A stretch of DNA of 30,852 nucleotides from a virus (IMGVR_UViG_3300020195_000121:1-30852), one strand, 5' to 3'; counted from the first letter of the stretch, positions 2,148 through 22,106 are shown. Numbers and translations are program-made. The notes: generated from the letters alone by a model not told the origin.

Positions 2148-2192
2148 AAACGTAATAGTAGTGTAAACAACAGAGATACTTAAAGTGAGTGG
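2148..2192 (+). promoter_or_regulatory. 45-bp start-proximal promoter box, copy C
   Basis: The 21 bases at 2148-2168 match the boxes at 5752 and 20292 in 16 of 21 positions, keeping both half-sites (AAACGTAA and TGTAAAC, GTAA elements 11 bp apart). TAAAGT at 2181-2186 occupies the shared TANNNT position, and ATG 2193 starts exactly 45 bases after the box begins. Confidence 0.6.
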
Positions 2193-2828
2193 ATGAGCAA
2201 GAAGTCTGGCGGCAAAAAAGCTGCTGTGAAACGTACTCAAGAGGCCGCAGAACCTAAACCTGATGAGATTCAGGTTATCTGCAAATACGCGGCGCTAGTT
2301 CCAATCGCAGAGCTAAAGACTAAATTTAATCCAGACAATCCTAACAAACACCCACAAGAGCAGCTTGAGCGCATAGCTAAGATTTTTAAGTACAACGGCA
2401 TCAGAAAAGCCGCAGTTATATCTGAGCGGTCGGATCTATTAACAATCGGACACGGTCGCATTATGGCGGCAGAGCAAATGGGTATGACTTATTATCCCGT
2501 CGAGTATCAACCCTATCTGTCCTTTGAACATGAGTACGCCGATATGGTCGCTGACAACGCCCTACAAGAGTGGTCGGGCATGAATCTAGCGAGTGTAAAT
2601 GCACAGGTGCCAGAGCTTGGGCCTGACTTTGATTTAGATGTGCTGGGACTGAAGGATTTTACGCTTGATGCAATGGACAAATTTGACCTTGATGACAAGC
2701 CTGACACTGACACTGACGCCGCAGTCAAACTCTCTCTCAATATTTCGTTTCCTAACGAGAGCGACATGCAGGTGGTTCACGATGAACTATTGGGGCGTGG
2801 ATACATAGTTAAGGTCGTCAATGGCTGA
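2193..2828 (+). CDS. ParB-like N-terminal (ParB/Srx fold) domain protein
   Basis: 211 aa. After a Lys-rich start, residues about 29-115 carry the ParB N-terminal fold signature: 'V.IAELK.....NPNKHPQEQLERIA', then 'IRKAAVI', 'LTIGHGRIMAAEQMGM' and 'YPVEYQ'. The GHGR box binds nucleotide in ParB/Srx proteins. The C-terminal 90 residues lack the ParB helix-turn-helix and are acidic. In phages such proteins commonly sit beside DNA methylases and terminase genes, sometimes as nucleases or modification cofactors. Here it overlaps the Dam-type gene by 8 bp (ATGGCTGA), so the two are likely co-translated. It may guide or regulate methylation or packaging rather than partition DNA. A regulatory box precedes it by 45 bp. 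Confidence 0.8.
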   Translation: MSKKSGGKKAAVKRTQEAAEPKPDEIQVICKYAALVPIAELKTKFNPDNPNKHPQEQLERIAKIFKYNGIRKAAVISERSDLLTIGHGRIMAAEQMGMTYYPVEYQPYLSFEHEYADMVADNALQEWSGMNLASVNAQVPELGPDFDLDVLGLKDFTLDAMDKFDLDDKPDTDTDAAVKLSLNISFPNESDMQVVHDELLGRGYIVKVVNG

Positions 2829-3804
2829 GTACGGAATACCATACATGGGGTCCAAGGGATCAATAGCTAACGAAATTATTTGCCGCCTGCCAAAGGCTGA
2901 AAACTTTTATGACATATTTGGCGGTGGCTTTAGTATTATGCACGCAATGCTTCAGCGGAGACCGAAGGACTTTAAGAGATTCCACTTCAACGAAATAAGG
3001 CCAGGCATTTGCGAGCTTATAAAGGCCGCCATTTCTGGTAAATATAGTTACAAGAACTTTAGCCCGCCATTTATTTCATCTGATGAGTTTAAAGAGAGAA
3101 AAAGCACTTGCGCCTACACGCAAATGCTTTGGTCCTTTGGCAATAATGGTGAGAATTATCTTTTTTCCAAGAAAATCGAGCCATATAAAAAATCAATGCA
3201 CAATGCAGTTGTGTTTAATAAGTTCGATGATCTTGCTAAAAAAGTGTTTTGCATGGACAGATTTAAAGAAGGATATTCTGTAAAAGATAGACGACTCTTT
3301 TTGCGCGCCAAAATTGAGTATTATCGTATAAATGGAATCCCTGACTTTCTTCTTGTATATTTGAATGCGAAGCAGTTGGTGCAGTTGCAGCAGTTGGAGG
3401 CGTTGCAGCAGTTGCAGCAGTTGCAGCAGTTGGAGGCGTTGCAGCGGTTGGAGGCGTTGCAGCAGTTGCAGCGGTTGGAGCCGTTGAAGCAGTTGGAATT
3501 TTATTCCACAAGTTATAATGAGATTAAAATAAAGCCCGATTCTGTTGTGTATTGCGATCCACCCTATGAGGGTACTGCCTCATACTCAAACGAATTTGAC
3601 CATAAGGCTTTTTTAGACTGGGCAGATGCGCAGACAGAGCCAGTGTTCATTTCCGAGTACAAAATAAATGATAATCGTTTCTCCCTCCTTTTTGAAATCC
3701 ACAAACTGTCCCTGCTTGGCCCATCATCAGGGAGAAAAAAGATGACCGAGCGTCTTTACGGAAACAAAGCCGCTCAAAATCTTAAGAAGGAATTAAATGC
3801 CTAA
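2821..3804 (+). CDS. Dam-type (D12 class) N6-adenine DNA methyltransferase
   Basis: 327 aa. The SAM-binding start is YMGSKG (residues 8-13) and YDIFGGGFS (about 30-38); the catalytic motif IV is DPPY (246-249) within VVYCDPPYEG. Together these define a D12-class adenine methylase acting on phage DNA, probably for protection from restriction or to time packaging. Residues 186-227 form 14 leucine-led triplets (LQQ, LEA, LQR) encoded by a 9-bp minisatellite, inserted just before motif IV. It overlaps the ParB-like gene upstream and the small terminase gene downstream. Host Dam enzymes are slightly smaller and lack this insert. The recognition sequence cannot be read from the protein. Confidence 0.9.
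   Translation: MAEYGIPYMGSKGSIANEIICRLPKAENFYDIFGGGFSIMHAMLQRRPKDFKRFHFNEIRPGICELIKAAISGKYSYKNFSPPFISSDEFKERKSTCAYTQMLWSFGNNGENYLFSKKIEPYKKSMHNAVVFNKFDDLAKKVFCMDRFKEGYSVKDRRLFLRAKIEYYRINGIPDFLLVYLNAKQLVQLQQLEALQQLQQLQQLEALQRLEALQQLQRLEPLKQLEFYSTSYNEIKIKPDSVVYCDPPYEGTASYSNEFDHKAFLDWADAQTEPVFISEYKINDNRFSLLFEIHKLSLLGPSSGRKKMTERLYGNKAAQNLKKELNA
3376..3501 (+). repeat. 9-bp minisatellite encoding Leu-x-x triplets
   Basis: Fourteen 9-bp units of GTTGCAGCA / GTTGGAGGC type, offset here to codons TTG-CAG-CAG and TTG-GAG-GCG, keep the reading frame of the adenine methylase whatever the copy number. Slippage would lengthen or shorten the Leu-rich arm without frameshift. Confidence 0.9.
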
Positions 3805-4219
3805 ACCCAAACCCAAATCAAAATCTCCAGCAAAAAAACTAGGTCAGCCGCCGGTGCCAATCAACATGGATCAACTGGCCGTACTCATGCGCTATAAACC
3901 GACACAGAATGACTGTGCAGCGTTTTTTAAGTGCTGTGCAGATACTATTGAGCGCCGCATCCGAGAGCACACGGGGCTTACATACGCAGAGTATCGTGAC
4001 CAACATTTCGTTCACACAAGATTTTCCTTAATTCAAAACGCCATCAAACGCGGCCTTGCCGGTGATAATGCCATGCACATTTTTAGCTTAAAGAATTTAT
4101 GCAATTGGAGTGACAAGGTGCCGGGCGAGGAGAACAAGACGATTGTTCTTAGTGGCAATATTCAAGTCGAGCGGGCCGAGCTTGATGACCGGATCAAGTT
4201 AATCAAGGAAAAAAAGTGA
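3797..4219 (+). CDS. Terminase small subunit-like protein
   Basis: 140 aa. A Lys/Pro-rich N-terminus is followed by a helix-turn-helix-like segment (about residues 32-65: 'PTQNDCAAFFKCCADTIERRI') and the 'HIFSLKNLCNWSDK' region common in phage small-terminase-like proteins. It should recognise the packaging site on concatemeric DNA and load the large subunit. It overlaps the methylase by 8 bp and the large terminase by 4 bp (GTGA), which supports this role. Sequence conservation in small terminases is low, so the family is inferred partly from position. Confidence 0.75.
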   Translation: MPKPKPKSKSPAKKLGQPPVPINMDQLAVLMRYKPTQNDCAAFFKCCADTIERRIREHTGLTYAEYRDQHFVHTRFSLIQNAIKRGLAGDNAMHIFSLKNLCNWSDKVPGEENKTIVLSGNIQVERAELDDRIKLIKEKK

Positions 4220-5733
4220 TTGCCTCAGGGCTCACTAGGGAACAATCAAATAGTCTTTATCTAGATATTCTGAGCGACGAGGATACCAAGGCCCTTAAAA
4301 CATTATGCACTGACGACTTGTTTTTCTTTTTAACCATTGCGTGCAAACGAAAAGACATAAACCGCGATTGGCTCTATGAGAGGTGCCGCGAGGTGGAGTC
4401 AAGCCCCGATGGCCATTTGGATTTGTGGGCAAGGGAGCATTATAAATCGACAACTATTACTTTTGGCAAATCCATTCAGGATCTACTTAAAGATCCAGAC
4501 AACACCACCATTGGTATTTTTAGTCACACGAGGCCCATTGCTAAGGGATTTCTCGAGCAGATCAAGCGAGAACTAGAGTCCAATGTTTTTCTTAAGGGTT
4601 TATTCCCAGAAGTTCTTTACGATAACCCAAAATCCGAAGCGCCGAAGTGGTCACTTGATCACGGCATCATTGTAAAACGCAAAACCAATCCAAAAGAGGC
4701 CAACGTTGAGGCGTGGGGCTTAGTAGATGGCCAGCCCACATCGAAGCATTTTAGTCTTTTGATCTATGACGACGTTGTGACAAGAGAGTCAGTGACAACG
4801 CCAGAGCAGATTAAAAAGGTCACTGCTGCTTGGGAGCTGTCATTAAACCTAGGAGCCCAAGGCGGGCGTAAGCGCCACATCGGCACTCGTTATCACCAGA
4901 ACGACACTTATAGAACCATGATGGACCGTGGCTCCGTAGTGCCAAGGATTTATCCAGCTACAGACAACGGCAAGATGGACGGCAATGCCGTGTTGTTCTC
5001 GCAAAGTGATTTAATGGAAAAGCGCCGTGATATGGGGCCGTACACTTTTGGCACTCAAATGTTGCAAGATCCAGTTGCCGATAAGTCGATGGGATTTAAA
5101 GAAGAGTGGTTGAAATACTATGAAACCATTGGCGATACATCCGAATGGAATAAGTATATTTTAGTTGATCCAGCCTCAAAGAAAAAAACCACGAGCGACT
5201 ACACGGTAATGGAAGTCATAGGCTTAGCGCCTGACGGCAATTACTATTTGATCGACGCTATCCGGGATAGACTTAATCTCACACAGCGGGCGTCAAAACT
5301 GTTTTCACTTCACAGAAAACATAAGCCACTGAATGTCGGCTATGAGCAATATGGAATGCAATCAGACACCGAGCACATCAGGTATGTGATGGAGCAAGAG
5401 AATTACAGATTTAATATTGTTGAGCTGAAGGGCCAGATTGCCAAAGAGGACCGCATAAGAAAACTAGTGCCAGTGTTTGAACAGGGGCGATTCTATATGC
5501 CTCACAGACTTTTCTTTGTGACCGCCGATGGCAAGAGTACTAACTACATTGAAGCATTCCGGGATGAGGAGTATCTATCCTTTCCCGTCTGCCTTCACGA
5601 CGACATGCTCGATTGTAGAGCCAGGATTCTAGATCCAGCACTTGACGCCAAATTCCCAGAGTTAGAGACATCTCCACCGACTGAGCGCCGCGCCTTTCAC
5701 TCTGGCGCTAGTTCAACAAACTGGATGGGCTGA
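4216..5733 (+). CDS. Terminase large subunit (packaging ATPase and nuclease)
   Basis: 505 aa. The ATPase half has an unusual Walker A, REHYKST (73-79), in place of GxGKT, as in several phage families with a 'R(G/E)HxKST' loop, and Walker B LLIYDD (181-186). The RNase H-like nuclease half has the acidic cluster D318 (ILVDPASKKKTTSDYT), E377 (YEQYG) and D462/D463 (HDDMLD). It cuts concatemers and drives DNA into the procapsid through the portal encoded next. GTG start overlaps the small subunit stop (GTGA). The gene ends 63 bp before the portal start, leaving room for the 5752 promoter box. Confidence 0.93.
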   Translation: MIASGLTREQSNSLYLDILSDEDTKALKTLCTDDLFFFLTIACKRKDINRDWLYERCREVESSPDGHLDLWAREHYKSTTITFGKSIQDLLKDPDNTTIGIFSHTRPIAKGFLEQIKRELESNVFLKGLFPEVLYDNPKSEAPKWSLDHGIIVKRKTNPKEANVEAWGLVDGQPTSKHFSLLIYDDVVTRESVTTPEQIKKVTAAWELSLNLGAQGGRKRHIGTRYHQNDTYRTMMDRGSVVPRIYPATDNGKMDGNAVLFSQSDLMEKRRDMGPYTFGTQMLQDPVADKSMGFKEEWLKYYETIGDTSEWNKYILVDPASKKKTTSDYTVMEVIGLAPDGNYYLIDAIRDRLNLTQRASKLFSLHRKHKPLNVGYEQYGMQSDTEHIRYVMEQENYRFNIVELKGQIAKEDRIRKLVPVFEQGRFYMPHRLFFVTADGKSTNYIEAFRDEEYLSFPVCLHDDMLDCRARILDPALDAKFPELETSPPTERRAFHSGASSTNWMG

Positions 5734-5751
5734 CTAGTTCGCACCTAAACG

Positions 5752-5796
5752 AAACGTAAAGCTTTTGTAAACGTAAGGATGCTCTAGGTTTATGGT
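5752..5796 (+). promoter_or_regulatory. 45-bp start-proximal promoter box, copy A
   Basis: The box AACGTAAAGCTTTTGTAAAC (5753-5772) differs from the 20292 copy at one position. GTAAA elements start at 5756 and 5767, 11 bp apart, with a CTAAA at 5745 in the same phase. TAGGTT at 5785-5790 is the TANNNT position, and GTG 5797 lies 45 bases from the box start. No strong Shine-Dalgarno precedes the GTG. Confidence 0.65.
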
Positions 5797-7899
5797 GTGC
5801 AGGATCAAGAAAAGCCTACCGAACCTAAAAATGATGAGGATCTTCTTGCTACTGCGAGGAAGCGCTTTGACCTTTGCGTTGAGGCTGAATCTGAAAACCG
5901 AAAACTTGCCCTTGAGGATTTAGAATTTAGAACTGGCAATCAGTGGCCAGCGGAAATTAAAGCTGAGCGCAATCAACAAGGCAGACCATGTCTTACAATC
6001 AACAGACTTCCACAATTCTTACGCCAGGTCACAAATGACCAGCGCCAAAACAGGCCTGCGATAAAAGTCTCGCCAGTTGATGATAGAGCCGACGTTGAAA
6101 CGGCTAAGATTTTTCAAGGACTGATCAGACATATCGAGTACAACTCAAATGCGGACGTTGCTTACGACACAGCTTTTGAGGGCGCAGCATCTGGTGGCCT
6201 AGGCTACATGCGAGTCATCACCGAATACTGTGACCCGTATTCATTTAATCAAGAAATTAAAATCAAGCGAGTTAGAAACAGATTTATGGTCTATCTCGAT
6301 CCGCACTCACAAGAGCCGGATGGATCTGACGCTAACTTCGGCTTCGTTGCCGAGGACGTTCCTTGGGAAACTTACAAGGCTATGTACAAAGAAGCCAAGG
6401 GTCAGGGAGCTGATGATTGGACATCTGTCGGCGACACTGCCCCTTCTTGGCAGAGCGACAAGACGGTCAGAGTCGTTGAGTATTTCTACAAGACTTTTAA
6501 AGAAGTCGACATGGTTCTTCTCGAGAACGGCTTTGTCGCTGAGAAATCAAAACTTCCAAAAGATAATCCACATAAAATATTAAAAGAGCGCAAGGCCGTT
6601 ATGCCAGCAATCAAGTGGTGCAAGACAAACGGCATTGAAGTTCTGGAGGAAACCGATTGGGCCGGACAATGGATACCAATCGTTCCGGTCTTGGGCGACG
6701 AAATTGATGTTGATGGCAAGCGCGTCCTTGAGGGCATCATTCGCCACGCCAAAGATCCTCAGCGCATGTACAACTACTGGGCGTCTGCTGAAACCGAGAC
6801 AATAGCCCTTGCTCCCAAGGCTCCCTTCATCGGCTATGAAGGTCAGTTCAAAGGCCATGAGCATAAGTGGGAAGCGGCCAATATAAAAAATCATGCCTAC
6901 CTTGAAGTAAAAGCCGTCACATTAAATGGCGTTACGGCACCACTTCCCCAGCGGAACGTATATGAGGCGCCCGTTGCTGCGATCACGAATGCTAGAATGC
7001 AGTCCTCTGAGGACTTAAAAGCCACGACTGGTATTTACGACGCAGCTCTTGGAAACAGATCAAATGAAAGTTCTGGCGTTGCAATTCAAAGACGCGCGAC
7101 ACAGGCGCAAACGTCAAACTTTCACTTTGTAGACAATCTCTCTAGATCACTTCGACACCTTGGCCGAATCCTCATCGATTTAATTCCTAAAGTTTACGAC
7201 ACCGAGAGGTCGGTCAGGATTATCGGTGATGATGGCGAGGCCGAGATTGTGGCGCTTAATCAAATCTTTGAAAAGGGCGGCAAAAAACTTCAATACAATC
7301 TCTCGGCCGGGAAGTACGACGTCACCGTTTCAACAGGCCCGTCTTACGCGACCAAGCGACAAGAGGCCGTGGACTCGATGCTTGAGCTGACAAAGGTCTA
7401 TCCGCAGATGGCACAAGTCGCTGGCGATTTGATTGTCAAAAATATGGATTGGCATGGCTCGCAAGAAATTGCAGAGCGATTAAAACGACAACTCCCTCCC
7501 GGCGTTGCCGATCAAGACGGCAAAGACAAGCCGCCAGTTCCTCCAGAAATCCAAGCACAACTCCAGCAGATGGGTCAAATGGTGGAGCAACTCACCAAGA
7601 CATCCAACGATCAGGCGCAAATTCTTGAGAACAAAAAAATGGAACTTGAATCCCGCGAGCGCATTGAGTTTAAGAAACTCGAGGTTCAAATCGCAATTAA
7701 AGAGGCCGAGCTTGGATCAAGAGAATCCATGGCGCTTCTGCAACACCAAGTCTCAGAGATCCACGAGCGCCTACAGCTCATTGGCATCGATGAGCCAATT
7801 GATATCGGAAATGAAGGGTCTGGCTTTGAGCAAGCTGAGATCCCAAATGAACAACAACAACCTACTGGTGGGCTCTCATCAGGCGAAACTCTGGAGTAA
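5797..7899 (+). CDS. P22-type portal protein
   Basis: 700 aa, the normal size for a P22 gp1-like portal. The N-terminus ('RKLALEDLEFRTGNQWP', 'RPCLTINRLPQFLRQVTNDQRQNRP') and 'GGLGYMRV' followed by 'VYLDPHS' are characteristic. Twelve copies form the ring at one capsid vertex through which DNA enters and leaves and to which the gp4-like tail factor binds. The C-terminal third is helical and Gln-rich (about 590-660), compatible with the barrel. The GTG start is chosen because it fits the conserved N-terminus; an overlapping ATG at 5792 is out of frame. It heads the head/neck gene run and has its own promoter box. Confidence 0.92.
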   Translation: MQDQEKPTEPKNDEDLLATARKRFDLCVEAESENRKLALEDLEFRTGNQWPAEIKAERNQQGRPCLTINRLPQFLRQVTNDQRQNRPAIKVSPVDDRADVETAKIFQGLIRHIEYNSNADVAYDTAFEGAASGGLGYMRVITEYCDPYSFNQEIKIKRVRNRFMVYLDPHSQEPDGSDANFGFVAEDVPWETYKAMYKEAKGQGADDWTSVGDTAPSWQSDKTVRVVEYFYKTFKEVDMVLLENGFVAEKSKLPKDNPHKILKERKAVMPAIKWCKTNGIEVLEETDWAGQWIPIVPVLGDEIDVDGKRVLEGIIRHAKDPQRMYNYWASAETETIALAPKAPFIGYEGQFKGHEHKWEAANIKNHAYLEVKAVTLNGVTAPLPQRNVYEAPVAAITNARMQSSEDLKATTGIYDAALGNRSNESSGVAIQRRATQAQTSNFHFVDNLSRSLRHLGRILIDLIPKVYDTERSVRIIGDDGEAEIVALNQIFEKGGKKLQYNLSAGKYDVTVSTGPSYATKRQEAVDSMLELTKVYPQMAQVAGDLIVKNMDWHGSQEIAERLKRQLPPGVADQDGKDKPPVPPEIQAQLQQMGQMVEQLTKTSNDQAQILENKKMELESRERIEFKKLEVQIAIKEAELGSRESMALLQHQVSEIHERLQLIGIDEPIDIGNEGSGFEQAEIPNEQQQPTGGLSSGETLE

Positions 7900-7902
7900 T
7901 CC

Positions 7903-8844
7903 ATGTCAATAGTAGTTACGTCCAATACTGAGGAACCAAAAGTTGAGGCTAGCAAGGATGCCGGTCTCGAAAATAAATCCGCTGATAAAAAAGCAGATAA
8001 CGGTGACGAAGTAGAGGACACAAAATCCGCGTCGGCTAGTGCTGATGAAACCGCTGAGGAATCGGACACCTTAGATAAAGAGGACCAAGACGGTGAAGTC
8101 GATGAGTCAAAACTTGAGGACAGACCTAAGAAGTCAAAGAACGGATTTAAGCGCCGTATTGACAAGCTGAATTCAAAGCTCTCCCTAAAGGATCAAGAGA
8201 TTGATTACTGGCGCCAAGAGGCACTGCGTACCAAATCAAAGCCTGAGGAAAAAGCTGTTGAGTCAAAGCCAAAAACTGACGGGCGTCCAAAGGAGGATGA
8301 TTTCGACACGCACACAGAATTCGTCGAAGCATTAACTGATTGGAAGATCGAACAACGTGATACCAAGAAGGCTAATGAGTCGAGAGATTCTCAACTGAAA
8401 TCGGAGCACGAAACTTTAACCAAAAGCCATACCGACAAGGTTAATGAGTTCAAAAAAGATCATGACGACTTTGAGGAAGTTATGGAAGATGTCGCTGACT
8501 TCGCCGTATCGGCCACAATTGAGCATGTGATTTTATCCTCCGACGTAGGCCCAGCGATTATGTATGAGCTGGCAAAGGACAAGAAGGAGCTGGAGCGAAT
8601 TAATAAGCTCTCACCCTTGTTCGCCGCCCGTGAGCTTGGGAAAATTGAGGCCAGGGTTCAAAGGTCTTCTGATAGCGATGAAAAACCTGAAATCAAAACA
8701 ACAAAAACCCCGGCACCTATAAAGCCAGTCGGAACAAGCGGGTCAGGATCTAAGAAAAGATCAATTAGCGATCCAGAAATCCCGCAAGTCGAGTACGAGG
8801 CTTTGCGCCGAGAGCAAATGAAGCAAAGAAAAGCATGGGGCTGA
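7903..8844 (+). CDS. Scaffolding protein-like, highly charged
   Basis: 313 aa, lying between portal and coat as scaffold genes do. Residues 1-80 are Asp/Glu/Lys-rich and low complexity; 85-220 are strongly helical and coiled-coil-like (repeated E/K with Leu), and the C-terminus is basic (KKRSISDPEIPQ... KQRKAWG). A basic C-terminal helix-turn-helix is what P22-type scaffolds use to bind coat protein during procapsid assembly. Call rests on position and composition, not on a clear sequence match. ATG 7903 is 4 bases after the portal stop with GGAG just upstream. Confidence 0.75.
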   Translation: MSIVVTSNTEEPKVEASKDAGLENKSADKKADNGDEVEDTKSASASADETAEESDTLDKEDQDGEVDESKLEDRPKKSKNGFKRRIDKLNSKLSLKDQEIDYWRQEALRTKSKPEEKAVESKPKTDGRPKEDDFDTHTEFVEALTDWKIEQRDTKKANESRDSQLKSEHETLTKSHTDKVNEFKKDHDDFEEVMEDVADFAVSATIEHVILSSDVGPAIMYELAKDKKELERINKLSPLFAARELGKIEARVQRSSDSDEKPEIKTTKTPAPIKPVGTSGSGSKKRSISDPEIPQVEYEALRREQMKQRKAWG

Positions 8845-8869
8845 TCTTTGAAACTAAAAGGAGTTTTTA

Positions 8870-10108
8870 ATGAGTAACAGTCTTCTAACTAACGACACAA
8901 TTACAAAAGAGTGCCTGATGGCTCTCAAAAATAATCTTGTTTTCACTAAGGGTGCAAACCGAGAATACAGCGACGAGTACGGTAAGAAGGGTGCTAAAAT
9001 CGGAAATGTTTTAAACATCCGAAAACCGTCTCGCTACGAAGTAACCTCTGGCGCCACATTGAACATTCAAGACACCGCTGACAAGTCGGTAGCGTTGACG
9101 CTTGACAAGCATTACCACGTTGGCATGGCCTTCGGTAATGTTGATCGCACACTATCTATCGATCAATTCCGCGAGCGTTATATTGAGCCCGCAATGATCG
9201 CCTTGGCGAACAAAATTGACTCTTCATTTTACGCTGATATGTACAAGGCGACTTACAGCTCTGTCGGCGTTCCCAGTGCATCGGCACTCCCCTCCACTCT
9301 TAAGGGTTTCGTTTTGGCAAAAGCTAAAATGGAATTGCTTGGCGCTACGGGCGGCTCTGCTTCTGCGGTAGTTGATCCTCTTGTCCAGGCTTCACTTGTC
9401 GACGGTCTTAAAGGATTGTTCCACTCTTCTGAGAAGATTGCTGAGCAGTATGAATCTGGTCTTATGGGAATCGCTGGCGGCTGCAAGTTCTCCTCGAGTG
9501 CGAATGTGGTAAAGCACACGATCGGCGCATTGGGCGGAACCCCGCTGGTAAACGGCGCGTCTGTTGCTGGCGACACTACTATAGTCACCGATGGATGGAC
9601 ATCCGCCGCTGCCACTCGTCTTAAAGCAGGCGATATTATTTCAATTGCAGCTGTTAACGCTGTAAACCCACAAACTCGCCAATCAACTGGTGAGCTTGCG
9701 CAATTTATAGTTACCGCAGACGGCGCATCTGATGGCTCTGGAAACATGACTATCACTATTGATCGCGCGATCTATGCTAGCGGCCAGTATCAGAATGTTG
9801 ATGCGCTACCTGCCGACAATGCTGTGATCACTGTTTTCGGCCACGCCTCAAGCTATGCAAACGTAGTCGCTCCGCAGAATCTTGTTTATTACAAGCAAGC
9901 TTATGCAATCGGCGTTGCTGATCTTGAGTTACCGGACGCTGGAGTCAAGGCGACAAGAGCTGCGGACAAAGATGCTGGGCTGTCTCTGACTATGACTGAG
10001 GCATTCGACATCGTGAATTACCGCATGATTCACCGGATTGATTTTCTCGGTGGATGGAAATGTATCTATCCCGAATTCGGGTGCCGCGTAGTCGGTCAGC
10101 CCGCTTAA
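8870..10108 (+). CDS. Major coat protein, P22 gene 5 type
   Basis: 412 aa, close to the P22 coat (430 aa). The N-terminus ('MSNSLLTNDTITKECLMAL', 'NREYSDEYGKKGAKIG', 'LNIRKPSRYEV') and 'VGMAFGNVDRTLSIDQFRERYIEPA' match the HK97-fold coat of P22-like phages. The strong AAAAGGAG (8857-8864) upstream of ATG fits the high expression needed for several hundred copies per capsid. An inserted segment at about 220-310, rich in Gly, Ala and Thr, corresponds to the surface-exposed insertion-domain region. A hairpin follows the gene. Confidence 0.92.
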   Translation: MSNSLLTNDTITKECLMALKNNLVFTKGANREYSDEYGKKGAKIGNVLNIRKPSRYEVTSGATLNIQDTADKSVALTLDKHYHVGMAFGNVDRTLSIDQFRERYIEPAMIALANKIDSSFYADMYKATYSSVGVPSASALPSTLKGFVLAKAKMELLGATGGSASAVVDPLVQASLVDGLKGLFHSSEKIAEQYESGLMGIAGGCKFSSSANVVKHTIGALGGTPLVNGASVAGDTTIVTDGWTSAAATRLKAGDIISIAAVNAVNPQTRQSTGELAQFIVTADGASDGSGNMTITIDRAIYASGQYQNVDALPADNAVITVFGHASSYANVVAPQNLVYYKQAYAIGVADLELPDAGVKATRAADKDAGLSLTMTEAFDIVNYRMIHRIDFLGGWKCIYPEFGCRVVGQPA

Positions 10109-10125
10109 TAGTTAGAAAACCCTGT

Positions 10126-10148
10126 GCGGCTCGAATTAATCGGGCCGC
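10126..10148 (+). terminator. Hairpin after the coat gene
   Basis: GCGGCTCGA and TCGGGCCGC pair over nine positions (one G-T) around ATTAA. No T-run follows, so it may protect the coat mRNA 3' end or only weaken read-through rather than terminate. AAGAAGGAG for the next gene lies just downstream. Confidence 0.6.
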
Positions 10149-10178
10149 CTAACAATTCTCAAGAAGGAGAAATTAAAT

Positions 10179-10448
10179 ATGAATACAGCGACAGATACCA
10201 TTATCCACAAGCTTCCCGTAACCGCTGGCGAGGGCGCGGCTCTCACTGCTCAGCTAACAACAATTACTATCGCCGATGCGGCTGGTACTCCTGACTATGC
10301 AATTCAGGCGATTACTAGCTCCACTCCATACGGTTTTGTGAATGCTGCTGAGTGCATCACGCTTTTGTATGTGGTTAAAAACTTGCAAGTGCGCCTCGCT
10401 GAAGTTGAAGCGCGTCTTGAGGCCGTAAATCTCGTAGTAAGCAATTAA
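10179..10448 (+). CDS. Hypothetical virion-associated protein, 89 aa
   Basis: Sits between coat and neck genes behind AAGAAGGAG. The N-terminal 60 residues are Thr/Ala/Ile-rich, suggesting beta structure; the last 27 (LLYVVKNLQVRLAEVEARLEA then VNLVVSN) form a heptad-like coiled coil, fitting a small trimer. A capsid decoration or head fibre role is plausible from position, but no family is recognised. It has an intrinsic terminator directly downstream, so coat plus this gene could form a strongly expressed unit. Confidence 0.6.
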   Translation: MNTATDTIIHKLPVTAGEGAALTAQLTTITIADAAGTPDYAIQAITSSTPYGFVNAAECITLLYVVKNLQVRLAEVEARLEAVNLVVSN

Positions 10449-10458
10449 TTTTAATTTG

Positions 10459-10488
10459 CCCCGGTGGACTTACTCTTCCGGGGTTTTT
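10459..10488 (+). terminator. Intrinsic terminator
   Basis: CCCCGG (10459-10464) and CCGGGG (10478-10483) pair around a 13-base loop and are followed by TTTTT. It separates the coat block from the neck genes and probably lowers expression of the latter. Confidence 0.85.
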
Positions 10489-10503
10489 CTGGAGGGTTTA
10501 CAA

Positions 10504-10692
10504 ATGAGTATTTATCCGTCTTGGAGATATCACAAAAATCTTGAGCCGAAGCTTATTCAGTCAAAGGACGAGGAAAATTCTGAGTGGAGGGATTCTCCCG
10601 CCGCGTTTTCCGATTGCCCAGTTGTTGAAGCACCGCTTGTTAAACCAAAAGCTCAAAAGGCTGGCAAACAAAAGCAAGCTGAGGCTCAGTAA
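10504..10692 (+). CDS. Hypothetical small protein, 62 aa
   Basis: ATG 10504 is preceded by GGAGGG (10491-10496); an in-frame start further upstream would fall inside the terminator and is rejected. The product begins MSIYPSWRYHKNLEPKLIQS, has 'EWRDSPAAF', and ends in a Lys/Gln/Ala-rich tail. Short proteins with a 'YP.W.YH.....ILV.S..E' start followed by 'W.DSPA' occur between coat and neck genes of podovirus-like phages. Function unknown. Its stop overlaps the next start (TAATG). Confidence 0.65.
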   Translation: MSIYPSWRYHKNLEPKLIQSKDEENSEWRDSPAAFSDCPVVEAPLVKPKAQKAGKQKQAEAQ

Positions 10693-11399
10693 TGGCCACA
10701 CTTCGGGATGTCATAAAGGCGTCTCTACAAAGCATTGGTGCGCTCGCTCAAGGTGAGTCGCCAAGTGCTGATGAAGAGGAAGAGGCGCGTCTTGTTTGTA
10801 ACCGAATGCTGGGCTCCTGGGCCGCCGAGGGTTTGCTTGTTCACGCTAAGGTCAGAGAGGAATTTACTCTTGTCGCCGCGAGCGCATCTCGCACTATTGG
10901 CGCTACAGGAAATTACGCCACAACAAGGCCTGTTAGATATTTACGCGCCACGATTGAAGATCAAAGTGCTAGCGGCACACCAGAATCGCCAGTCGAAATG
11001 ATCACCACGCAGCAGTGGGCAGATATTACCGATAAGGCCACAACGGCTGCGTTGCCTACAAAAATCTATTTAGAAAATACATATCCAAACGACACTATTA
11101 ATTTTTGGCCCGTGCCGAGTGCTGCTAATAAGTTGGTTCTCTACACAGAAAAACCACTCACGGCTTTTACTTCGGTGTCGACCACATTCTCGTTCCCTGA
11201 GGGATATGAGGAAGCCGTTGTTTTAAATCTAGGCAAGCGCCTAGCTAAGAACTACGGGAAAATGATTGATCAAGACTATTTGAATGAGGCCATTAATTTA
11301 AAGGCCAATTTACAAGTTAACAACTCGGAGCCCAGGTATTTGACGTGCGATGCGGCTCTCTTAGGCTCTGGTGGATACGACATATATAAGGGGTATTAG
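10692..11399 (+). CDS. P22 gp4-like tail accessory factor (head completion)
   Basis: 235 aa. 'ADEEEEARLVCNRMLGSWAAEGLLV' followed by 'F.LV...SRTIGATGNYATTRP.RYLRA' and 'INFWPVPSAANKLVLYTEKPL' is the typical N-terminal helical domain and barrel of P22 tail accessory factor gp4, which binds below the portal after packaging and starts tail assembly. P22 gp4 also has muramidase activity, but I cannot assign catalytic residues here. It directly precedes the gp10-like gene, as in P22. Confidence 0.85.
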   Translation: MATLRDVIKASLQSIGALAQGESPSADEEEEARLVCNRMLGSWAAEGLLVHAKVREEFTLVAASASRTIGATGNYATTRPVRYLRATIEDQSASGTPESPVEMITTQQWADITDKATTAALPTKIYLENTYPNDTINFWPVPSAANKLVLYTEKPLTAFTSVSTTFSFPEGYEEAVVLNLGKRLAKNYGKMIDQDYLNEAINLKANLQVNNSEPRYLTCDAALLGSGGYDIYKGY

Positions 11400-11401
11400 G
11401 T

Positions 11402-13110: not shown

Positions 13111-13445
13111 GCGTTACGCCTAAGGGTTTAATCAGCGCCAAATATGCTTCAGACACGGACACTACTGAGTATACGTCTCCGGCTGACACTAAAACTATTA
13201 TCGATAAATTCACGGCTACAAATAACGATGCGAGCGATAGAACGCTTACGGTGAACATCGTTCCAAATGGCGGAACTCTTGGCAACGACAATCTGATCAT
13301 GATTGCCACTTCAATTGCAGCGGGTGCCACTCGTGACTTCTCTGAGCTTCAAAATCAAATTCTAAATGACGGCGATTCTGTAAGCGTCGTCGCGAGCGTC
13401 GCTAGCATGGTGATCATCCGAATGAGTGGGAGGGCGAGCACATGA
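13107..13445 (+). CDS. Small beta-sandwich phage structural-type protein, 112 aa
   Basis: The pattern 'YTSPADTKTIIDKFTATNNDASDRTLTVNIVPNG' (shown in pieces: YTSPADTKTIID, then DRTLTVNIVPNG), followed by 'SIAAGATRDFSELQNQILNDGDSVSV' and 'MVIIRMSG', matches a widespread small beta-rich family in phage tail regions. It likely forms an Ig- or jelly-roll-like domain decorating the virion. GTG start overlaps the previous stop (GTGA). Exact role unknown. Confidence 0.65.
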   Translation: MSVTPKGLISAKYASDTDTTEYTSPADTKTIIDKFTATNNDASDRTLTVNIVPNGGTLGNDNLIMIATSIAAGATRDFSELQNQILNDGDSVSVVASVASMVIIRMSGRAST

Positions 13446-13783
13446 TATCCGACACGCTATATGGAAAATATATTCAAGAGCGCCAGGGCGCTAAGATCTT
13501 AGAAAACCCAAGCGCATTTATTATTTATGTCCTCAATGGCCGAGAATGTTTCATCGTCGACATGTCTGTGGACACCGAGATGCGCCGAGAGGGCTGCGGT
13601 AGAGAGCTTGTTGATAAGCTGACGGTCATAGCTAAGGATTATGGCTGTGAATTCATCACTGGCAATATTCATATTAAATTTGAAAATCACACAGAGGTTT
13701 TGTCTGCTGCAATTCGATGCGGATTTTATCTCGTTGGTGCACATGACGGCACCATTACAATTGCAAAGAAAGTGGAGGTATAA
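13442..13783 (+). CDS. GNAT-family acetyltransferase-like protein, 113 aa
   Basis: The acetyl-CoA loop is visible as 'MRREGCGRELVDKL' (about residues 44-57), matching R-x-x-G-x-G, after a beta strand 'ECFIVDMSVD'. 'CEFITGNIH' and 'VLSAAIRCGFYLVG' correspond to later elements of the fold. It is short for a GNAT, lacking some N-terminal strands, so activity is not certain. Such genes recur in the tail/ejection regions of podovirus-like phages; they might modify a virion or host protein. Starts ATGA-coupled to the previous gene. Confidence 0.65.
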   Translation: MISDTLYGKYIQERQGAKILENPSAFIIYVLNGRECFIVDMSVDTEMRREGCGRELVDKLTVIAKDYGCEFITGNIHIKFENHTEVLSAAIRCGFYLVGAHDGTITIAKKVEV

Positions 13784-14740
13784 ATGGGATCACAACTTAC
13801 ACAAGTCGCGGGCTCACTTACCGGGCAGAAAAGCCCCCATGGTCAGGCTGGAAGTTTCATTGATCGGCAGTTTTTAGGAGGAGCGCAAAGGGACGCCGCT
13901 GAGCAGCAAGCTCGGGCTGGGCACGCTGCCCTGGCAACTCAGAAATATATTTTTAACCAAACTAGAAAAGATGCTGAGCCCTGGAGACAATCGGGACTCA
14001 GGGCACTTAATCAGTTGAACGAACAAATGCCCGACCTTAATAAATCTTTCTCTATGGCCGATTACCAAGCAGATCCTGGGTTTGATTTCAGAATGGCCGA
14101 AGGCTCAAAAGCAATTGAGCGATCAGCCGCAGCTCGCGGTGGTCTTAACTCCGGCGCTACGATGAAGTCCCTCACCAGGTTTGCGCAGGGAACAGCAAGC
14201 GATGAGTACGGAAGAGCCTATGATCGATTTAATAATGACCGCACCAATCGGTTTAACAAACTCTCGTCACTTTCTGGTGTGGGCCAGGTAGCTAATTCTG
14301 AAATGGCCGTCGGTGGCCGAAACTACGGCAATCAGGCCACACAAATTCAACAAGGGATTGGTAACGCTAGGGCTGGCGGAATCATAGGGCAATATGACGC
14401 CATCAACCACACCATGGACCAGGCCGCCAAATATGGGGCGATGATGTCGGATGTAAATCAAAAAACTAACATCGCACCAGCGCATGATGAGATTTCGCAA
14501 ATCCTTGATGGACTTAGACCTTACACTTTTGATTATAAAGAAGCTGCGTACGGCGTGACGCCGCAAATCGGTATACTTGCTCAAGACCTAGAAAAAACTG
14601 AGTTTGGCCGAAGCATTGTGCAACAAACTCCAAATGGGAAAATGATTATGGTTCCGCAGGCCGTTGGCGCACTTCTCGCGGCGGTCGCATCTCTACACAC
14701 AAGAGTGAAGCAACTTGAGGGGAAATCATGGCAGAGCTAG
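13784..14740 (+). CDS. Ejection-type virion protein with C-terminal S74 chaperone domain
   Basis: 318 aa. Residues about 30-170 resemble phage DNA-transfer/ejection proteins ('YIFNQTRKDAEPWRQSGLRAL', read as two parts, and 'DPGFDFRMAEGSKAIERSAA', 'YDRFNNDRTNRFNKLSSLSG'). From about 218 a peptidase S74-like (intramolecular chaperone) domain follows: 'MSDVNQKTNI', then 'LRPYTFDYK', 'IGILAQDL', and 'VGALLAAVASLHTRVKQLE'. Ser222 and Lys227 have the five-residue spacing of the catalytic dyad used for self-cleavage. Usually S74 domains end tail fibres or spikes, so the pairing is notable. First of three probable ejection genes. Confidence 0.75.
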   Translation: MGSQLTQVAGSLTGQKSPHGQAGSFIDRQFLGGAQRDAAEQQARAGHAALATQKYIFNQTRKDAEPWRQSGLRALNQLNEQMPDLNKSFSMADYQADPGFDFRMAEGSKAIERSAAARGGLNSGATMKSLTRFAQGTASDEYGRAYDRFNNDRTNRFNKLSSLSGVGQVANSEMAVGGRNYGNQATQIQQGIGNARAGGIIGQYDAINHTMDQAAKYGAMMSDVNQKTNIAPAHDEISQILDGLRPYTFDYKEAAYGVTPQIGILAQDLEKTEFGRSIVQQTPNGKMIMVPQAVGALLAAVASLHTRVKQLEGKSWQS

Positions 14741-15966
14741 ACCCAAGCATTATCTTATCAGGAAAACATTCAGACATTATGGGCTCAATAGCCAGCGGTC
14801 TAAAAATGAAGGACCTAGGGATTGAGAGAAAAGCCAAGGCCGATGATGCTGCTAAGTCCCTGCGGATTCAAAACGCATATAAAAGCAATGTTCAAGTCAA
14901 TCCTGACGGCACGACGTCGCTTAATGAAAAAGCTGTGCTCGGCGATCTTTACAAAGAAGATCCAATGGAAGCGCAGAGGTTTGAGAAACAGTCAGCGGCT
15001 GATAAAGAACTTCAGCGCCAGCAGAAATTCAATGCGCTCAAGGATGAAACTATGGCGGGCCGAGAAATCGCTTATTCTATCGCCGATGAGGCGAGCTATC
15101 AAACTGGAATTAAGCGGGCCGAGGAGCTTGGACTTTCAAGGCCAGGGGATCATCCGCCGAACTATGATCCCGGCTATGTTAAATCATTTCAAAATAGATA
15201 CCGAACAGCGGCGGAGCAAATTGCCCAGGCGGAGAAACAAAATCAGTGGGGCCATGAGGATAAATCTAAGGCTGATGAGCGCGATTTTGAATTGAAAAAA
15301 ATCAACCGACAAGAAGAGCTTAGGCGCGGAGGATCTGTGCTCACACAGAGGGCGGAGAGGGAATTTCAAGAACTTAAGAATAAGCAAGCACAAGGTCTCC
15401 TCACACAGCAGGGCGAGCAGAGAATGCAAGAGCTTCAGGCGAAGAGTGTGCAAAAATCATCGAATCCCGCCAAGATGAGCATTAGTCAGGCCAAGCAGAA
15501 AGGGCTGTATGACTCGGGCGCGGAGGCTGAGAGGCAATATCAAGCCGCAGCAGACCCTAGCAAGAGCTGGTGGAACAGCTTTGATCCGGCGTCTAGTTTC
15601 CAGTGGGTAGACAAGAATGATTGGGCGCCCAATTTTCTTAAATCCTCGGAAGCTCAGGTCGCCCATAGCGCACAGGACAGATGGATTGAAGCCTTCCTTC
15701 GCGATGCTTCGGGCGCCGCAATCCCTCCGAGCGAGCGGGGCGCGTACGCCAAGGATTTTTTCCCAATGTCCGGTGATAGCGCCCAGGTCGTGGCAGATAA
15801 AGCCGCGGCTCGCAAAATTAAAATGGAAAACGCAAGGCTCGCGTCTGGCGAAAATGTCGACCACCAAGAAACCCCAACGGCTGGACACGTTGAGGACGGT
15901 TATGTTTTTCAGGGCGGTGATCTTTCTGATCCAAAAAACTGGGTCGAACAAACGGCGGGTAAATAG
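14728..15966 (+). CDS. Ejection (internal virion) protein 2, coiled-coil rich
   Basis: 412 aa, overlapping the previous gene by 13 bp. Residues 30-240 are rich in Glu, Lys, Gln and Ala with long helical heptad runs; the C-terminus has 'GHVEDGYVFQGGDLSDPKNWVEQ', a motif common at the ends of podovirus injection proteins. By P22 analogy (gp7, gp20, gp16) it would be packed with DNA, leave through the tail and help form a channel across the host envelope. No lytic transglycosylase motif is visible. The role is inferred from position and composition. Confidence 0.65.
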   Translation: MAELDPSIILSGKHSDIMGSIASGLKMKDLGIERKAKADDAAKSLRIQNAYKSNVQVNPDGTTSLNEKAVLGDLYKEDPMEAQRFEKQSAADKELQRQQKFNALKDETMAGREIAYSIADEASYQTGIKRAEELGLSRPGDHPPNYDPGYVKSFQNRYRTAAEQIAQAEKQNQWGHEDKSKADERDFELKKINRQEELRRGGSVLTQRAEREFQELKNKQAQGLLTQQGEQRMQELQAKSVQKSSNPAKMSISQAKQKGLYDSGAEAERQYQAAADPSKSWWNSFDPASSFQWVDKNDWAPNFLKSSEAQVAHSAQDRWIEAFLRDASGAAIPPSERGAYAKDFFPMSGDSAQVVADKAAARKIKMENARLASGENVDHQETPTAGHVEDGYVFQGGDLSDPKNWVEQTAGK

Positions 15967-18330: not shown

Positions 18331-18340
18331 GTGGAGTTTT

Positions 18341-19657
18341 ATGGCACATCTTCTCGCTAACCCAAGGCTAAAGTTCTACGACTCGGCGGGGGCCGCTCTA
18401 GCCGCTGGGAAAATCTATACTTACGCAGCGGGAACGACGACACCGCTTGCATCCTACACAGACAAGACAGAGGGCGCGGCTAACGCTAACCCCGTAGTGC
18501 TTGATGCGTACGGTGAGGCTGACATTTGGCTTAGCAGTTATGCTTACAAGATTGTAATCAAGACCTCGGCTGATGTGACTATTCGAACCTACGACAATGT
18601 CACTCAAGTAAATGCTGACACGATCACTACGGCCAAAATTAATGACCTTGCCGTCACTACGGCCAAAATTAATGACCTTGCCGTCACCGCGGCCAAGATC
18701 GATGCTCTCACGATTACTGCGGCGAAACTTGCGGCTGACGCTGTGACTACTTCAAAGATCACTGACCTCAACGTTACGACGGCCAAGATTAATGACCTCG
18801 GCGTGACGACTGGAAAACTCGCGGCCAACGCTGTGACTGCGGCTAAGATTGACGCGGATTTTGTGAATGATTTTACGACAGCCACGCCAGAGTCAGTCGA
18901 CTATCTGTTGTTCGGTGATACCAGCGATTCGAACAATGCAAAGAAGGCGCTGATTTCAGACCTTCCAGAAAACACCACAAAGCGGCTCATGTCTTATTAC
19001 AAGAACCAAGGTGCTTCGACCGCGACGAACTTAGGATTTCCGGCAGCGCCGACGCTTAAGGCCACAGTGTCTGCGATAGATAACGTCAACGGCACCTATC
19101 TTCGCCACACGACGGGCGCTGTGATCGGAAATTCGAGCGGCGTAATCTCCACGACATTTACCGTTGTGCAACCCAGATGGCTTCCAGAGTTTTTAATCAA
19201 GATGGCGTCTGGCCAAAACGTGTCAGCAATCAGTCGCGGCTTTGTTGGCTTCTTTTCCGCAAGCCCCGACGCCGCAGGAGATGTTGCGGAGCTTTCGTCC
19301 ACACCGGCCACTGCATTTGCAGCGTTCGTTTATGAGCGCCCAGCAGTCTCCGCTCCGGCATATCTCGACACATGGGTCGCGATTACTTCGAACGGCACGG
19401 CTGGGGCTGGCAATTACACAAGAACAGAGTGTTTGATCGCTGGTGCGAAGATTTCGCCCAACACCGCATGTACTCTTCGAATTGCCTTTGTTTCATCGTC
19501 TGACGTTAGATTTTATATTAACGGCACACTGTACGCGACGCACACAACGACTCTTCCAACGTCTAATCAAGCTCTTGGTTTTGGCGCTAGAATAGTCACC
19601 GCCGAGGCATTGGCAACAGACATCGAATGGTCGCGCATAGAGGTTCGTCATTTATGA
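18341..19657 (+). CDS. Tail fibre protein 1 with repeat shaft and lectin-like end
   Basis: 438 aa. Residues 1-88 are a conserved phage tail N-terminal domain ('NPRLKFYDSAGAALAAGKIY', 'TPLASYTDKT', 'ANPVVLDAYGEADIWL'), probably the virion attachment module. Residues 93-185 are ten-residue repeats of 'TTAKINDLAV' type forming a shaft. The C-terminal 240 residues are beta-rich with 'GNGTYLRHTTG'-like features and 'FYINGTLYATHT', suggesting a jelly-roll, lectin-like host-binding head. The first 90 residues are paralogous to the next gene. GGTGGAG precedes the ATG. Receptor unknown. Confidence 0.8.
   Translation: MAHLLANPRLKFYDSAGAALAAGKIYTYAAGTTTPLASYTDKTEGAANANPVVLDAYGEADIWLSSYAYKIVIKTSADVTIRTYDNVTQVNADTITTAKINDLAVTTAKINDLAVTAAKIDALTITAAKLAADAVTTSKITDLNVTTAKINDLGVTTGKLAANAVTAAKIDADFVNDFTTATPESVDYLLFGDTSDSNNAKKALISDLPENTTKRLMSYYKNQGASTATNLGFPAAPTLKATVSAIDNVNGTYLRHTTGAVIGNSSGVISTTFTVVQPRWLPEFLIKMASGQNVSAISRGFVGFFSASPDAAGDVAELSSTPATAFAAFVYERPAVSAPAYLDTWVAITSNGTAGAGNYTRTECLIAGAKISPNTACTLRIAFVSSSDVRFYINGTLYATHTTTLPTSNQALGFGARIVTAEALATDIEWSRIEVRHL
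18626..18685 (+). repeat. 30-bp perfect tandem repeat in the fibre shaft
   Basis: Two identical 30-bp units encode TTAKINDLAV twice, followed by diverged copies up to about 18860. It allows in-frame change of shaft length. Confidence 0.9.
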
Positions 19658-19673
19658 ATAATCGGAGTGCACA

Positions 19674-20288
19674 ATGTCTGAATTAGCTCCTTTCCTACGG
19701 CCTCAATTTTTCGACGACAATGGAGATCCGCTCTCAGGCGGTAAACTCTACTCGTACATTGCCGGCACCTCGACTCCGCTCTCGACCTACACAAACGCTT
19801 CGGGATCAACGCCAAACGCTAATCCAGTTGTTTTAGATGCCTCTGGTAGAGCGGCCATTTGGATTGGCTCTGGTAGTTACAAGTTTTTGCTGGCCACATC
19901 AGCCGACGTCACTATATGGACCGAGGACAACGTCACAGCAAACAACTCTGACGTGGACTCCGGATGGGCTGAGCACACAATCACTGATGGACAAGCCGCG
20001 ACTGACCTTTCGGGCGAAACCGTTAACTTGGTTCTCTACTCATCGGCACTTTATGAAGTGGAAGTTATGAGAGGCTCACCTGTCGCTTATCAATCAAGCG
20101 GCTGGATTGCAGTGCAAGTGCTAGCCGGCACGGCCCGAGTTGTGGCCGGCGCCTTTATTTCAGCAGAAGCTCATGGCGTAACGTTCTCTGTCTCACAAGT
20201 CGCAACGACGGCGCAATTAAAAGCTGCGACGTCATCGGGTCCTGGCGTTGGAACAATTAAGCTCAGGCGTCGTCTGGTTCCAACGTAA
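19674..20288 (+). CDS. Tail fibre / adaptor protein 2, paralogous N-terminus
   Basis: 204 aa. Residues 1-90 ('RPQFFDDNGDPLSGGKLYSY', 'STPLSTYTNASG', 'ANPVVLDASGRAAIWIGSGSYKFLL') repeat the attachment domain of the preceding fibre, so the two proteins may compete for or share a docking site. The remaining 110 residues are beta-rich ('LVLYSSALYEVEVMRGS', 'IKLRRRLVP') and resemble small trimeric head domains. No shaft is present. The gene ends just before the third promoter box. Confidence 0.75.
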   Translation: MSELAPFLRPQFFDDNGDPLSGGKLYSYIAGTSTPLSTYTNASGSTPNANPVVLDASGRAAIWIGSGSYKFLLATSADVTIWTEDNVTANNSDVDSGWAEHTITDGQAATDLSGETVNLVLYSSALYEVEVMRGSPVAYQSSGWIAVQVLAGTARVVAGAFISAEAHGVTFSVSQVATTAQLKAATSSGPGVGTIKLRRRLVPT

Positions 20289-20291
20289 AGA

Positions 20292-20336
20292 AAACGTAAA
20301 ACTTTTGTAAACTCTCATGCAGCTTAGCATTGGGCT
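20292..20336 (+). promoter_or_regulatory. 45-bp start-proximal promoter box, copy B
   Basis: Box AACGTAAAACTTTTGTAAAC (20293-20312). GTAAA elements start at 20285, 20296 and 20307, exactly 11 bp apart. TAGCAT at 20325-20330 is the TANNNT hexamer, six bases before GTG 20337. No Shine-Dalgarno is visible between the box and the GTG. Confidence 0.65.
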
Positions 20337-22106
20337 GTGGCCTCACTTTCAAAATTAATAGTCTTAATTTTATTTGTTCCGTTGGTGGCCTCTGGCCAAA
20401 TCTATGTTGATCAACTCAATGTCGATAATATCCGACTTGACGGCAACACGCTATCAACTACAAACACAGACGGCGATTTCACAATTGATATAAATGGTGC
20501 TGGATCTACAGTCCTGGCCGACCTTACTGCTACAACGGTGCCTTACCTTGATGCTAGTAAGAAAATAAAATCGTCCGCGGTCACGCCGACAGAGCTTGGC
20601 CGCCTTACTGGGGTTAGCTCAACTCTATGCGGAATCTCTGACGCCTGCACGCTGACAAATAAGTCAATCGATGCCGACACAAACACGCTCACCAATATCG
20701 AGAATGCGGACGTCAAGGCTGCGGCGGGGATTGCTTATTCAAAGCTCAATCTTGGAACCAGCATCGTCAACGCCGATATTAACGGCTCAGCAGCGATTGC
20801 TTATTCAAAACTAAATCTTGCGACATCAATCGTTAATGCCGACATTAGTGCGTCCGCCGCGATTGATGACACAAAGCTTGCAACCATTTCAACAGCGAGC
20901 AAGGTCTCAAACTCGGCGACCACGGCAACAGACGTCAACACGAATAGCGCCATAGTAGCTCGAGACGGATCGGGGAATTTTTCGGCCACGACTATTTCAG
21001 CCGCGCTTACTGGTAACGCTTCAACGGCCACGGCCTTGGCCGCAAATCCCGCCGACTGCTCTTCAGATACATACGCAACAACTATTGCAGCGAGCGGCGC
21101 ACTCACTTGCGCGACAGTCACAAATGCGGGTCTTGCAGGCTCAATTGCAGCATCAAAGTTGGTTGCCACCGACATTACAACTATCGGCACAATCACAAGC
21201 GGCACATGGACCGGAACAACTATAGCACTGGCAAACGGTGGCACGGGTCAAGCGACTAAGGCCGCCGCTTTTGACGCTCTCTCTCCAATGACTACGGTGG
21301 GCGACATAATTATCGGTGGCGCCTCGGGAACGGGAACGCGCTTTGCAAAGTGTTCCGATGGCCAGATAATTAAGTATGCCGCTGGAACAGTTGGGTGTGG
21401 CGCCGATACAACGGGGGCAGGCTCACTAGGATATCGCGCAGTCGCTAGCGCCGACAGCACAACGGCTAGCGACGGTTTTGTAAAGCTAAGCGGCGCTAGC
21501 TTTACGCTAACGCTCCATACAGCGGTCGGAAATACAGGTCAGATTTTAGAGCTAGGTCATCAGGGAACTTCGCTTACTCAGATTTACACTCTTGCGACTA
21601 CTTCGAGCCAAACAATCGGCGGGATTGCCTCTGGTGTCTACATTTTGTATACAAAAGGCGAAACCCTGAAACTAATCTCTGATGGCGCGAATTGGCTTAT
21701 TGTAAGTCACGCGGCTAATACCGCCCCGGCATCTTACACGCCCGCCACTCATCAAGGATTCGGCACAGTTACCGCCACAACATATACTTGGTGGCGCATT
21801 GGCTCGACCTGCTTTGTCCAGGCGACGTGGACGAACGGAACAGTAAGCGGCTCGCAGGCGCAAGTTAGTATTCCGGATAACATCACTCACGCGGTAACAA
21901 TCGCAACACCCGGAACAGCGGTAGGGACATTCGTAAGTAACTCTGCAACGTCGCCGTCGACCGTAAATTTAATTAGCGGTAATGCCTTTTTCACGCTTAG
22001 TGGCCCAGGAGTTAACATGGGGCCTACTTCGGGAAGCACAGCCTCGAATAACTCGCTTAAAATGACTATTTTTGCGTCCTTTCCCGTCTCAGGCTGGCAG
22101 CCATAG
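20337..22106 (+). CDS. Tail-fibre-like repeat protein with N-terminal signal peptide, 589 aa
   Basis: Residues 1-20 (MASLSKLIVLILFVPLVASG) have a Lys, a hydrophobic core and a small-residue cleavage site (VASG-Q): a Sec signal peptide. The mature part has fibre-type repeats ('IAYSKLNLGTSIVNADI' twice, residues about 130-180), 'GTWTGTTIALANGGTG', and a beta-rich C-terminus. Such repeats are common in phage tail fibres, but those stay cytoplasmic for assembly. The product may therefore be exported to the host envelope, or the hydrophobic start may be a virion-attachment helix. GTG start, with its own promoter box; next gene lies 8 bp downstream. Confidence 0.7.
   Translation: MASLSKLIVLILFVPLVASGQIYVDQLNVDNIRLDGNTLSTTNTDGDFTIDINGAGSTVLADLTATTVPYLDASKKIKSSAVTPTELGRLTGVSSTLCGISDACTLTNKSIDADTNTLTNIENADVKAAAGIAYSKLNLGTSIVNADINGSAAIAYSKLNLATSIVNADISASAAIDDTKLATISTASKVSNSATTATDVNTNSAIVARDGSGNFSATTISAALTGNASTATALAANPADCSSDTYATTIAASGALTCATVTNAGLAGSIAASKLVATDITTIGTITSGTWTGTTIALANGGTGQATKAAAFDALSPMTTVGDIIIGGASGTGTRFAKCSDGQIIKYAAGTVGCGADTTGAGSLGYRAVASADSTTASDGFVKLSGASFTLTLHTAVGNTGQILELGHQGTSLTQIYTLATTSSQTIGGIASGVYILYTKGETLKLISDGANWLIVSHAANTAPASYTPATHQGFGTVTATTYTWWRIGSTCFVQATWTNGTVSGSQAQVSIPDNITHAVTIATPGTAVGTFVSNSATSPSTVNLISGNAFFTLSGPGVNMGPTSGSTASNNSLKMTIFASFPVSGWQP

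Follow-up and report, generated by a model that had tools for sequence, protein, structure and literature searches.

A putative class of activator-dependent, leaderless late promoters in a P22-like podovirus family, and a small phage protein that may read them

The linear, incomplete virus record IMGVR_UViG_3300020195_000121, whose 30,852 bp are referred to here as the window, carries a 21-bp box at a fixed distance ahead of three late gene blocks, and this raises the question of what reads the box and how it serves the genes behind it. Based on evidence that is sequence-based throughout, the boxes probably belong to a class of late promoters and serve as binding sites for its activator, a small protein encoded at 1856-2092 on the minus strand.

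The three boxes are on the plus strand at 2148-2168 (AAACGTAATAGTAGTGTAAAC), 5752-5772 (AAACGTAAAGCTTTTGTAAAC) and 20292-20312 (AAACGTAAAACTTTTGTAAAC), where the original prediction had placed them, and the second and third differ at one position in 21. Each box begins 45 bp ahead of its start codon (ATG 2193, GTG 5797 and GTG 20337). A TANNNT element resembling a -10 begins at box start +34 in each: TAAAGT at 2182-2187 (13 bp past box 1 and 5 bp ahead of ATG 2193), TAGGTT at 5786-5791 and TAGCAT at 20326-20331, all on the plus strand. Box 1 contains the hexamers GTAATA (2152-2157) and GTAAAC (2163-2168), 11 bp apart. The other two sites are longer arrays with the same 11-bp period, a feature that goes beyond the original prediction. 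Site 2 (5745-5772) has an additional CTAAAC (5745) ahead of GTAAAG (5756) and GTAAAC (5767), and site 3 (20285-20312) has three GTAA repeats, in GTAAAG (20285), GTAAAA (20296) and GTAAAC (20307).

When both strands of the window were scanned with AAACGTAA-N6-TGTAAAC at up to two mismatches, only these three sites were returned, all on the plus strand; there was no equally good match within a gene, and the same pattern read backwards gave zero sites. The next-best site, at 20281 with three mismatches, is the upstream repeat of box 3, 11 bp out of register. GTAA-N7-GTAA is likewise confined to the three boxes, plus the extra copy at 20285. As had been claimed, the genes behind the boxes open the packaging, head and tail/lysis blocks. 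They encode a ParB-like protein (PHROG 620, 2193-2828), a P22-like portal protein (5797-7899) and a tail-fibre-like protein with a signal-peptide-like N-terminus (20337-22106, with the lysis genes next), all on the plus strand.

A promoter layout shared across the family

The window had no match among phage records by megablast. Relatives were gathered via capsid and terminase, and their portal, packaging and tail genes were then located. The exact window box with a nearby TG was found in 27 stretches among 2.9 million viral contigs, in unrelated phages. By a rough estimate this is about the number expected by chance, so conservation had to be sought as a grammar and not as an exact word. Two unrelated viral contigs carry arrays with a 17-bp period such as AAACGTAAAAAGATTGT (L016 at about 80-213; L025 at 179-385 and 2080-2188), possibly replication iterons that match the box by chance.

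The conservation that had been anticipated holds for the spacing and for the distance from box to start codon, and fails for the exact box word. Across a wide P22-like podovirus family, 2-5 hexamers stand 11 bp apart, leaving 5 bp between neighbours, with the last at -30; a TANNNT-like -10 element follows after 12-13 bp, and the start codon 5-8 bp after that. When 26 promoters from 14 phages are aligned at the start codon, the identity between the hexamer at -30/-31 and its counterpart 11 bp further upstream is 69-71%, compared with a mean of 30% over the offsets tested. The pattern [GT]TAA-N7-[GT]TAA, when its second half is required to lie 28-32 bp upstream of a start codon, occurs 10 times in 16 family contigs (eight genuine promoters and two occurrences within capsid genes), and other spacers from 2 to 15 occur 0-2 times each. 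L110 and L117 have CTATA[G/C]-N5-CTAT[A/T][G/C] arrays at late promoters only, no CTATA[G/C] repeats at other spacers from 0 to 15 were found in these two phages, and the copies in L117 reach upstream to about -63. Autocorrelation of all portal upstream regions gives only z=2.0 at lag 11, because many family members are without boxes. That the boxes are a chance resemblance with no regulatory function is extremely improbable: there are just three sites in the window, but the grammar is kept at orthologous genes in about 16 phages.

What kind of promoter is this? The -10 element is sigma70-like, and the candidate -35 matches TTGACA no better than shuffled sequence (2.62 vs 2.80 for shuffled, 26 promoters). 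Lacking a -35 element, these promoters look activator-dependent. The original prediction had proposed a late promoter class under a dedicated activator or sigma factor, bound to direct repeats at a spacing of one helical turn. The promoter class and the activator agree with the layout found here, and the sigma factor is disfavoured, since only the -35 region is replaced. A comparable layout is known from T4, in which 12 +/- 1 bp separate the MotA box from a sigma70 -10 element (PMC2988021). In the family studied here the box is at about -30, 12 +/- 1 bp from the -10 and without a -35, and T4 middle promoters likewise have a phage box at about -30 in place of the -35. The T4 system differs in that MotA acts together with AsiA and, as a double-wing monomer, reads a single box of 9-10 bp, whereas here hexamers recur every 11 bp. 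In addition, MotA promoters are middle promoters, whereas those described here precede late genes and their candidate factor is a ribbon-helix-helix-like protein of about 75 residues.

The same promoters also bear on translation. A Shine-Dalgarno-like 4-mer is present at 0 of 26 box promoters; the figure is 24 of 26 for capsid genes and 16 of 24 for another late gene family. Within the window, a well-placed Shine-Dalgarno sequence is absent from the three box genes, including the ParB-like gene, and present in most neighbouring late genes. The -10 element ends 5-8 bp before the start codon and, given the ordinary spacing from -10 to start in sigma70 promoters, the predicted +1 thus coincides with the gene's first base or lies next to it. 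Taken with the missing Shine-Dalgarno sequences, this leads us to predict that the late transcripts of the box genes, including all three in the window, are leaderless. In the packaging block of G004, box-N12-TACCCT is kept, the start codon lies further downstream and a GAGGAG site precedes it.

Phage-specific hexamer words and host CtrA

Different phages have different hexamer words (GTAAAC, TTAAAG, CTAAAG and CTATAG), with CTAAAG in L004 and L118, and CTATAG in L110, L114, L116 and L117, at the same position. Hexamer agreement is 0.88 within a phage vs 0.68 between phages (permutation p=0.0002; upstream hexamer, p=0.0014). In the portal tree, the CTATAG phages L110 and L117 are sister to the CTAAAG phage L004 (99/99), and the CTATAG phage L116 is sister to the CTAAAG phage L118 (100/100). 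The two words are thus neighbours at two supported nodes, and the word has switched at least two times while the geometry stayed fixed. Such switching would be expected of a phage-borne factor and not of a conserved host regulator. Hexamers of the CTATAG and GT..AC/CT..AG types are palindromic or partly so, as would be expected for sites bound by a dimer. In L114, three CTATAG copies stand ahead of the portal gene at 2416-2445 with 12-bp spacing, a natural spacing variant.

Could a host regulator read the boxes? Host CtrA, or another OmpR-family response regulator, might drive the late genes from TTAA-N7-TTAA-like boxes over the -35 region, an explanation we regard as improbable. It has a precedent, as host CtrA controls genes of some Alphaproteobacteria phages (PMC9437464). 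Exact TTAA-N7-TTAA is found in several relatives (in G005, GTTAAAGTTTTGTTAAC), and the TTAA boxes of relatives sit where CtrA-activated promoters are reported to carry theirs. Relatives of TerL (57-62% identity) occur in CtrA-encoding genomes. No Trans_reg_C winged-helix domain (PF00486) was found in 10 related virus records, which is in keeping with a host regulator and counts against a phage-encoded OmpR/PhoB-type activator.

The boxes share with the sites of CtrA-regulated phages direct half-sites 11 bp apart and a promoter-proximal position. However, none of the three window boxes has a TTAA half-site; all three are GTAA-N7-GTAA, and relatives vary, some having TTAA. Close relatives have CTAAAG or CTATAG at identical positions, and the word is specific to the phage, in contrast to the reported conservation of CtrA recognition. 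In CtrA-regulated (LPEG) Alphaproteobacteria phages, the published sites lie mostly in terminal repeats or in a gap region ahead of genes of unknown function (PMC9437464), whereas those of the window are spread over three gene-block starts and head packaging, head and tail blocks. CtrA as the general factor was rejected in view of the CTATAG and CTAAAG relatives: the word differs between phages and agrees within a phage, so CtrA cannot be the general factor.

Beside the TerL relatives in CtrA-bearing genomes, no boxes and no close head genes were found, and a prophage in G020 with a TerL of 57% identity was set aside, its head genes being distant and boxes absent. GANTC depletion, a further host clue, gave no consistent signal in the box phages. 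Unlike them, G008 (35,409 bp) is strongly depleted in GANTC (26 found vs 97 expected), and this may hint at a CcrM-bearing host.

A small divergent protein as candidate activator

The original prediction called for a phage protein that binds the box, and we now have a candidate. An all-against-all comparison indicated that box phages share a small divergent gene just before the packaging block. In the window it encodes a 78-residue, ribbon-helix-helix-like protein (1856-2092, minus strand), divergent from box 1, with homologues at the same place in relatives. A profile built from six members gave further matches in L004/G010 and L038, then in L108, L110, L111, L116 and L117. In 12 phages the small protein is encoded beside the packaging block and divergently, and every homologue except that of L038 is divergent and adjoins a box promoter. 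The homologues are 69-88 residues long and 19-41% identical to the window protein. The protein was not found in G007 and G008, the family members without boxes. Four box phages gave no clear hit: G001 has a 15-bit match on the opposite strand before the terminase, and the contigs of L107, L114 and L118 stop about 0.6 kb or less from the terminase gene. G005 has an additional copy, more distantly related, at 6066-6296 (27 bits).

The core motif, [VIL]T.W[LIV]P..YK.KYD..Q..S.RKF.K.L.E....AID, resembles a ribbon-helix-helix domain. The AlphaFold2 monomer (mean pLDDT 75) has helices at 42-55 and 58-77 after an extended segment without an assigned strand, and the profile-profile score against known members, 18.1, exceeds the 99% level of 400 controls (14.7). 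Together these offer modest support for the fold. In this weak profile alignment, window residue 35 is aligned with Gln9 of Arc, which is among the residues by which Arc contacts bases. All four phages with a TATA word (L110, L116, L117 and L038) have Thr at position 35, and the nine others have Gly, Pro, Ala or Leu, never Thr. Residue 35 is a putative DNA-facing residue.

From these sequences we infer the fold, the binding to the boxes, activation over repression and the position of +1, and the following mechanism combines them. The small phage protein would be made from the divergent gene adjoining box 1, and its dimers would bind the palindromic or pseudopalindromic hexamers repeated every 11 bp. 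Covering about -41 and -30, and positions further upstream in those phages that have additional copies, the dimers would stack along a single side of the helix and substitute for the missing -35 element. Host RNA polymerase would be recruited to the TANNNT -10 about 12 bp downstream, transcription would begin with the first base of the start codon or a base adjacent to it, and the first gene of each late block would be translated from a leaderless mRNA.

The same protein might instead bind the boxes and repress the late promoters early in infection, with something else activating them. Its sites cover the -35 region, and phage proteins of the ribbon-helix-helix type, Arc among them, act as repressors, points that count for this alternative. 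It is nevertheless unlikely: without a -35 element the promoters look activator-dependent, and the L117 copies up to about -63 fit an activator array at least as well. Another phage factor, with a different DNA-binding domain or sigma-like, might also read the boxes, the small protein being an unrelated early regulator. The weak ribbon-helix-helix assignment favours this, as does the incomplete window, from which further regulators may be missing. It is also quite unlikely, as the small gene is the sole non-structural, non-packaging small gene at the same place in all the box phages compared, and residue 35 of its product covaries with the box word.

Several points weigh against an activator of this kind. 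The starts and half-sites of the 26 promoters were picked by inspection, partly guided by the grammar; the spacing in L114 is 12 bp, and the packaging promoter of L116 fits the grammar poorly. Pfam, PHROGs, NCBIfam, PDB-sequence and Foldseek searches gave no match for the ribbon-helix-helix assignment, and the profile-profile score (P 0.003, in register) is below the control maximum of 18.8. The association of Thr-35 with the TATA word is post hoc, and one of its four cases is the weak L038 site. Finally, gene and boxes could lie together through shared descent, with the small regulator serving no promoter but its own.

Gene layout and comparison with known systems

The gene order of the window is that of a P22-like podovirus. 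The ParB-like gene is followed by a D12 methyltransferase gene and the terminase genes, then by portal, scaffold and capsid; downstream are head closure, DNA ejection and tail fibre genes, the lysis region, and recombination and replication genes. The packaging operon is led by the ParB-like and D12 adenine methyltransferase genes (2193-3804), several relatives keep the ParB-like gene without the methyltransferase, and a plasmid search using the D12 methyltransferase found none. The terminase large subunit differs between the window (4216-5733) and G006 (30249-31706), G001, G003 and G007; despite this, G006, G003 and G001 retain box promoters. The product of 20337-22106 looks like a secreted tail-fibre-like protein. 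Its N-terminus is signal-peptide-like (MASLSKLIVLILFVPLVASGQ), as is that of its homologue in G006 (13245-15926, minus strand), and both are possibly exported fibre-like proteins made late. The 58,198-bp contig G002 has a terminase-portal pair near its start (6583-10289) and, near its end (52953-56939), a 505-aa terminase-like protein and a 723-aa open reading frame of a different type; it represents either two phages on one contig or a chimaeric assembly.

Among known regulators, omega dimers bind one heptad each, in direct or inverted arrays (PMC4803016). The candidate protein is similar to Arc, MetJ and omega in being short, in having a predicted extended segment followed by two helices, and in the proposed binding of dimers to tandem short sites. 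No family profile and no solved member of the ribbon-helix-helix (Arc/MetJ/CopG) superfamily matched it significantly. The characterised members are mainly repressors or partition proteins, whereas the sites described here suggest an activator that replaces the -35. The lambda CII protein, a helix-turn-helix protein of lysogenic promoters, recognises TTGC-N6-TTGC straddling the -35; compared by site sequence only, it shares with the boxes a pair of direct repeats separated by about one helical turn.

Within the collection of papers searched, none combined ribbon-helix-helix, phage, late promoter and activator. A ribbon-helix-helix-like late activator that co-evolved with its hexamers to several words, while the geometry and the leaderless start stayed fixed, is a proposal that could turn out either way. 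The activators and sites would form a natural series of matched pairs with differing words, useful for studying how a protein and its target change together. Because sites of the same geometry and other words occur in close relatives, TTAA-N7-TTAA in phages need not imply host CtrA. The starts of transcription and translation appear to be tied to one base. Antitermination is the late control known from P22-type phages; this large, mostly uncultivated P22-like family seems instead to use a set of activator-dependent late promoters.

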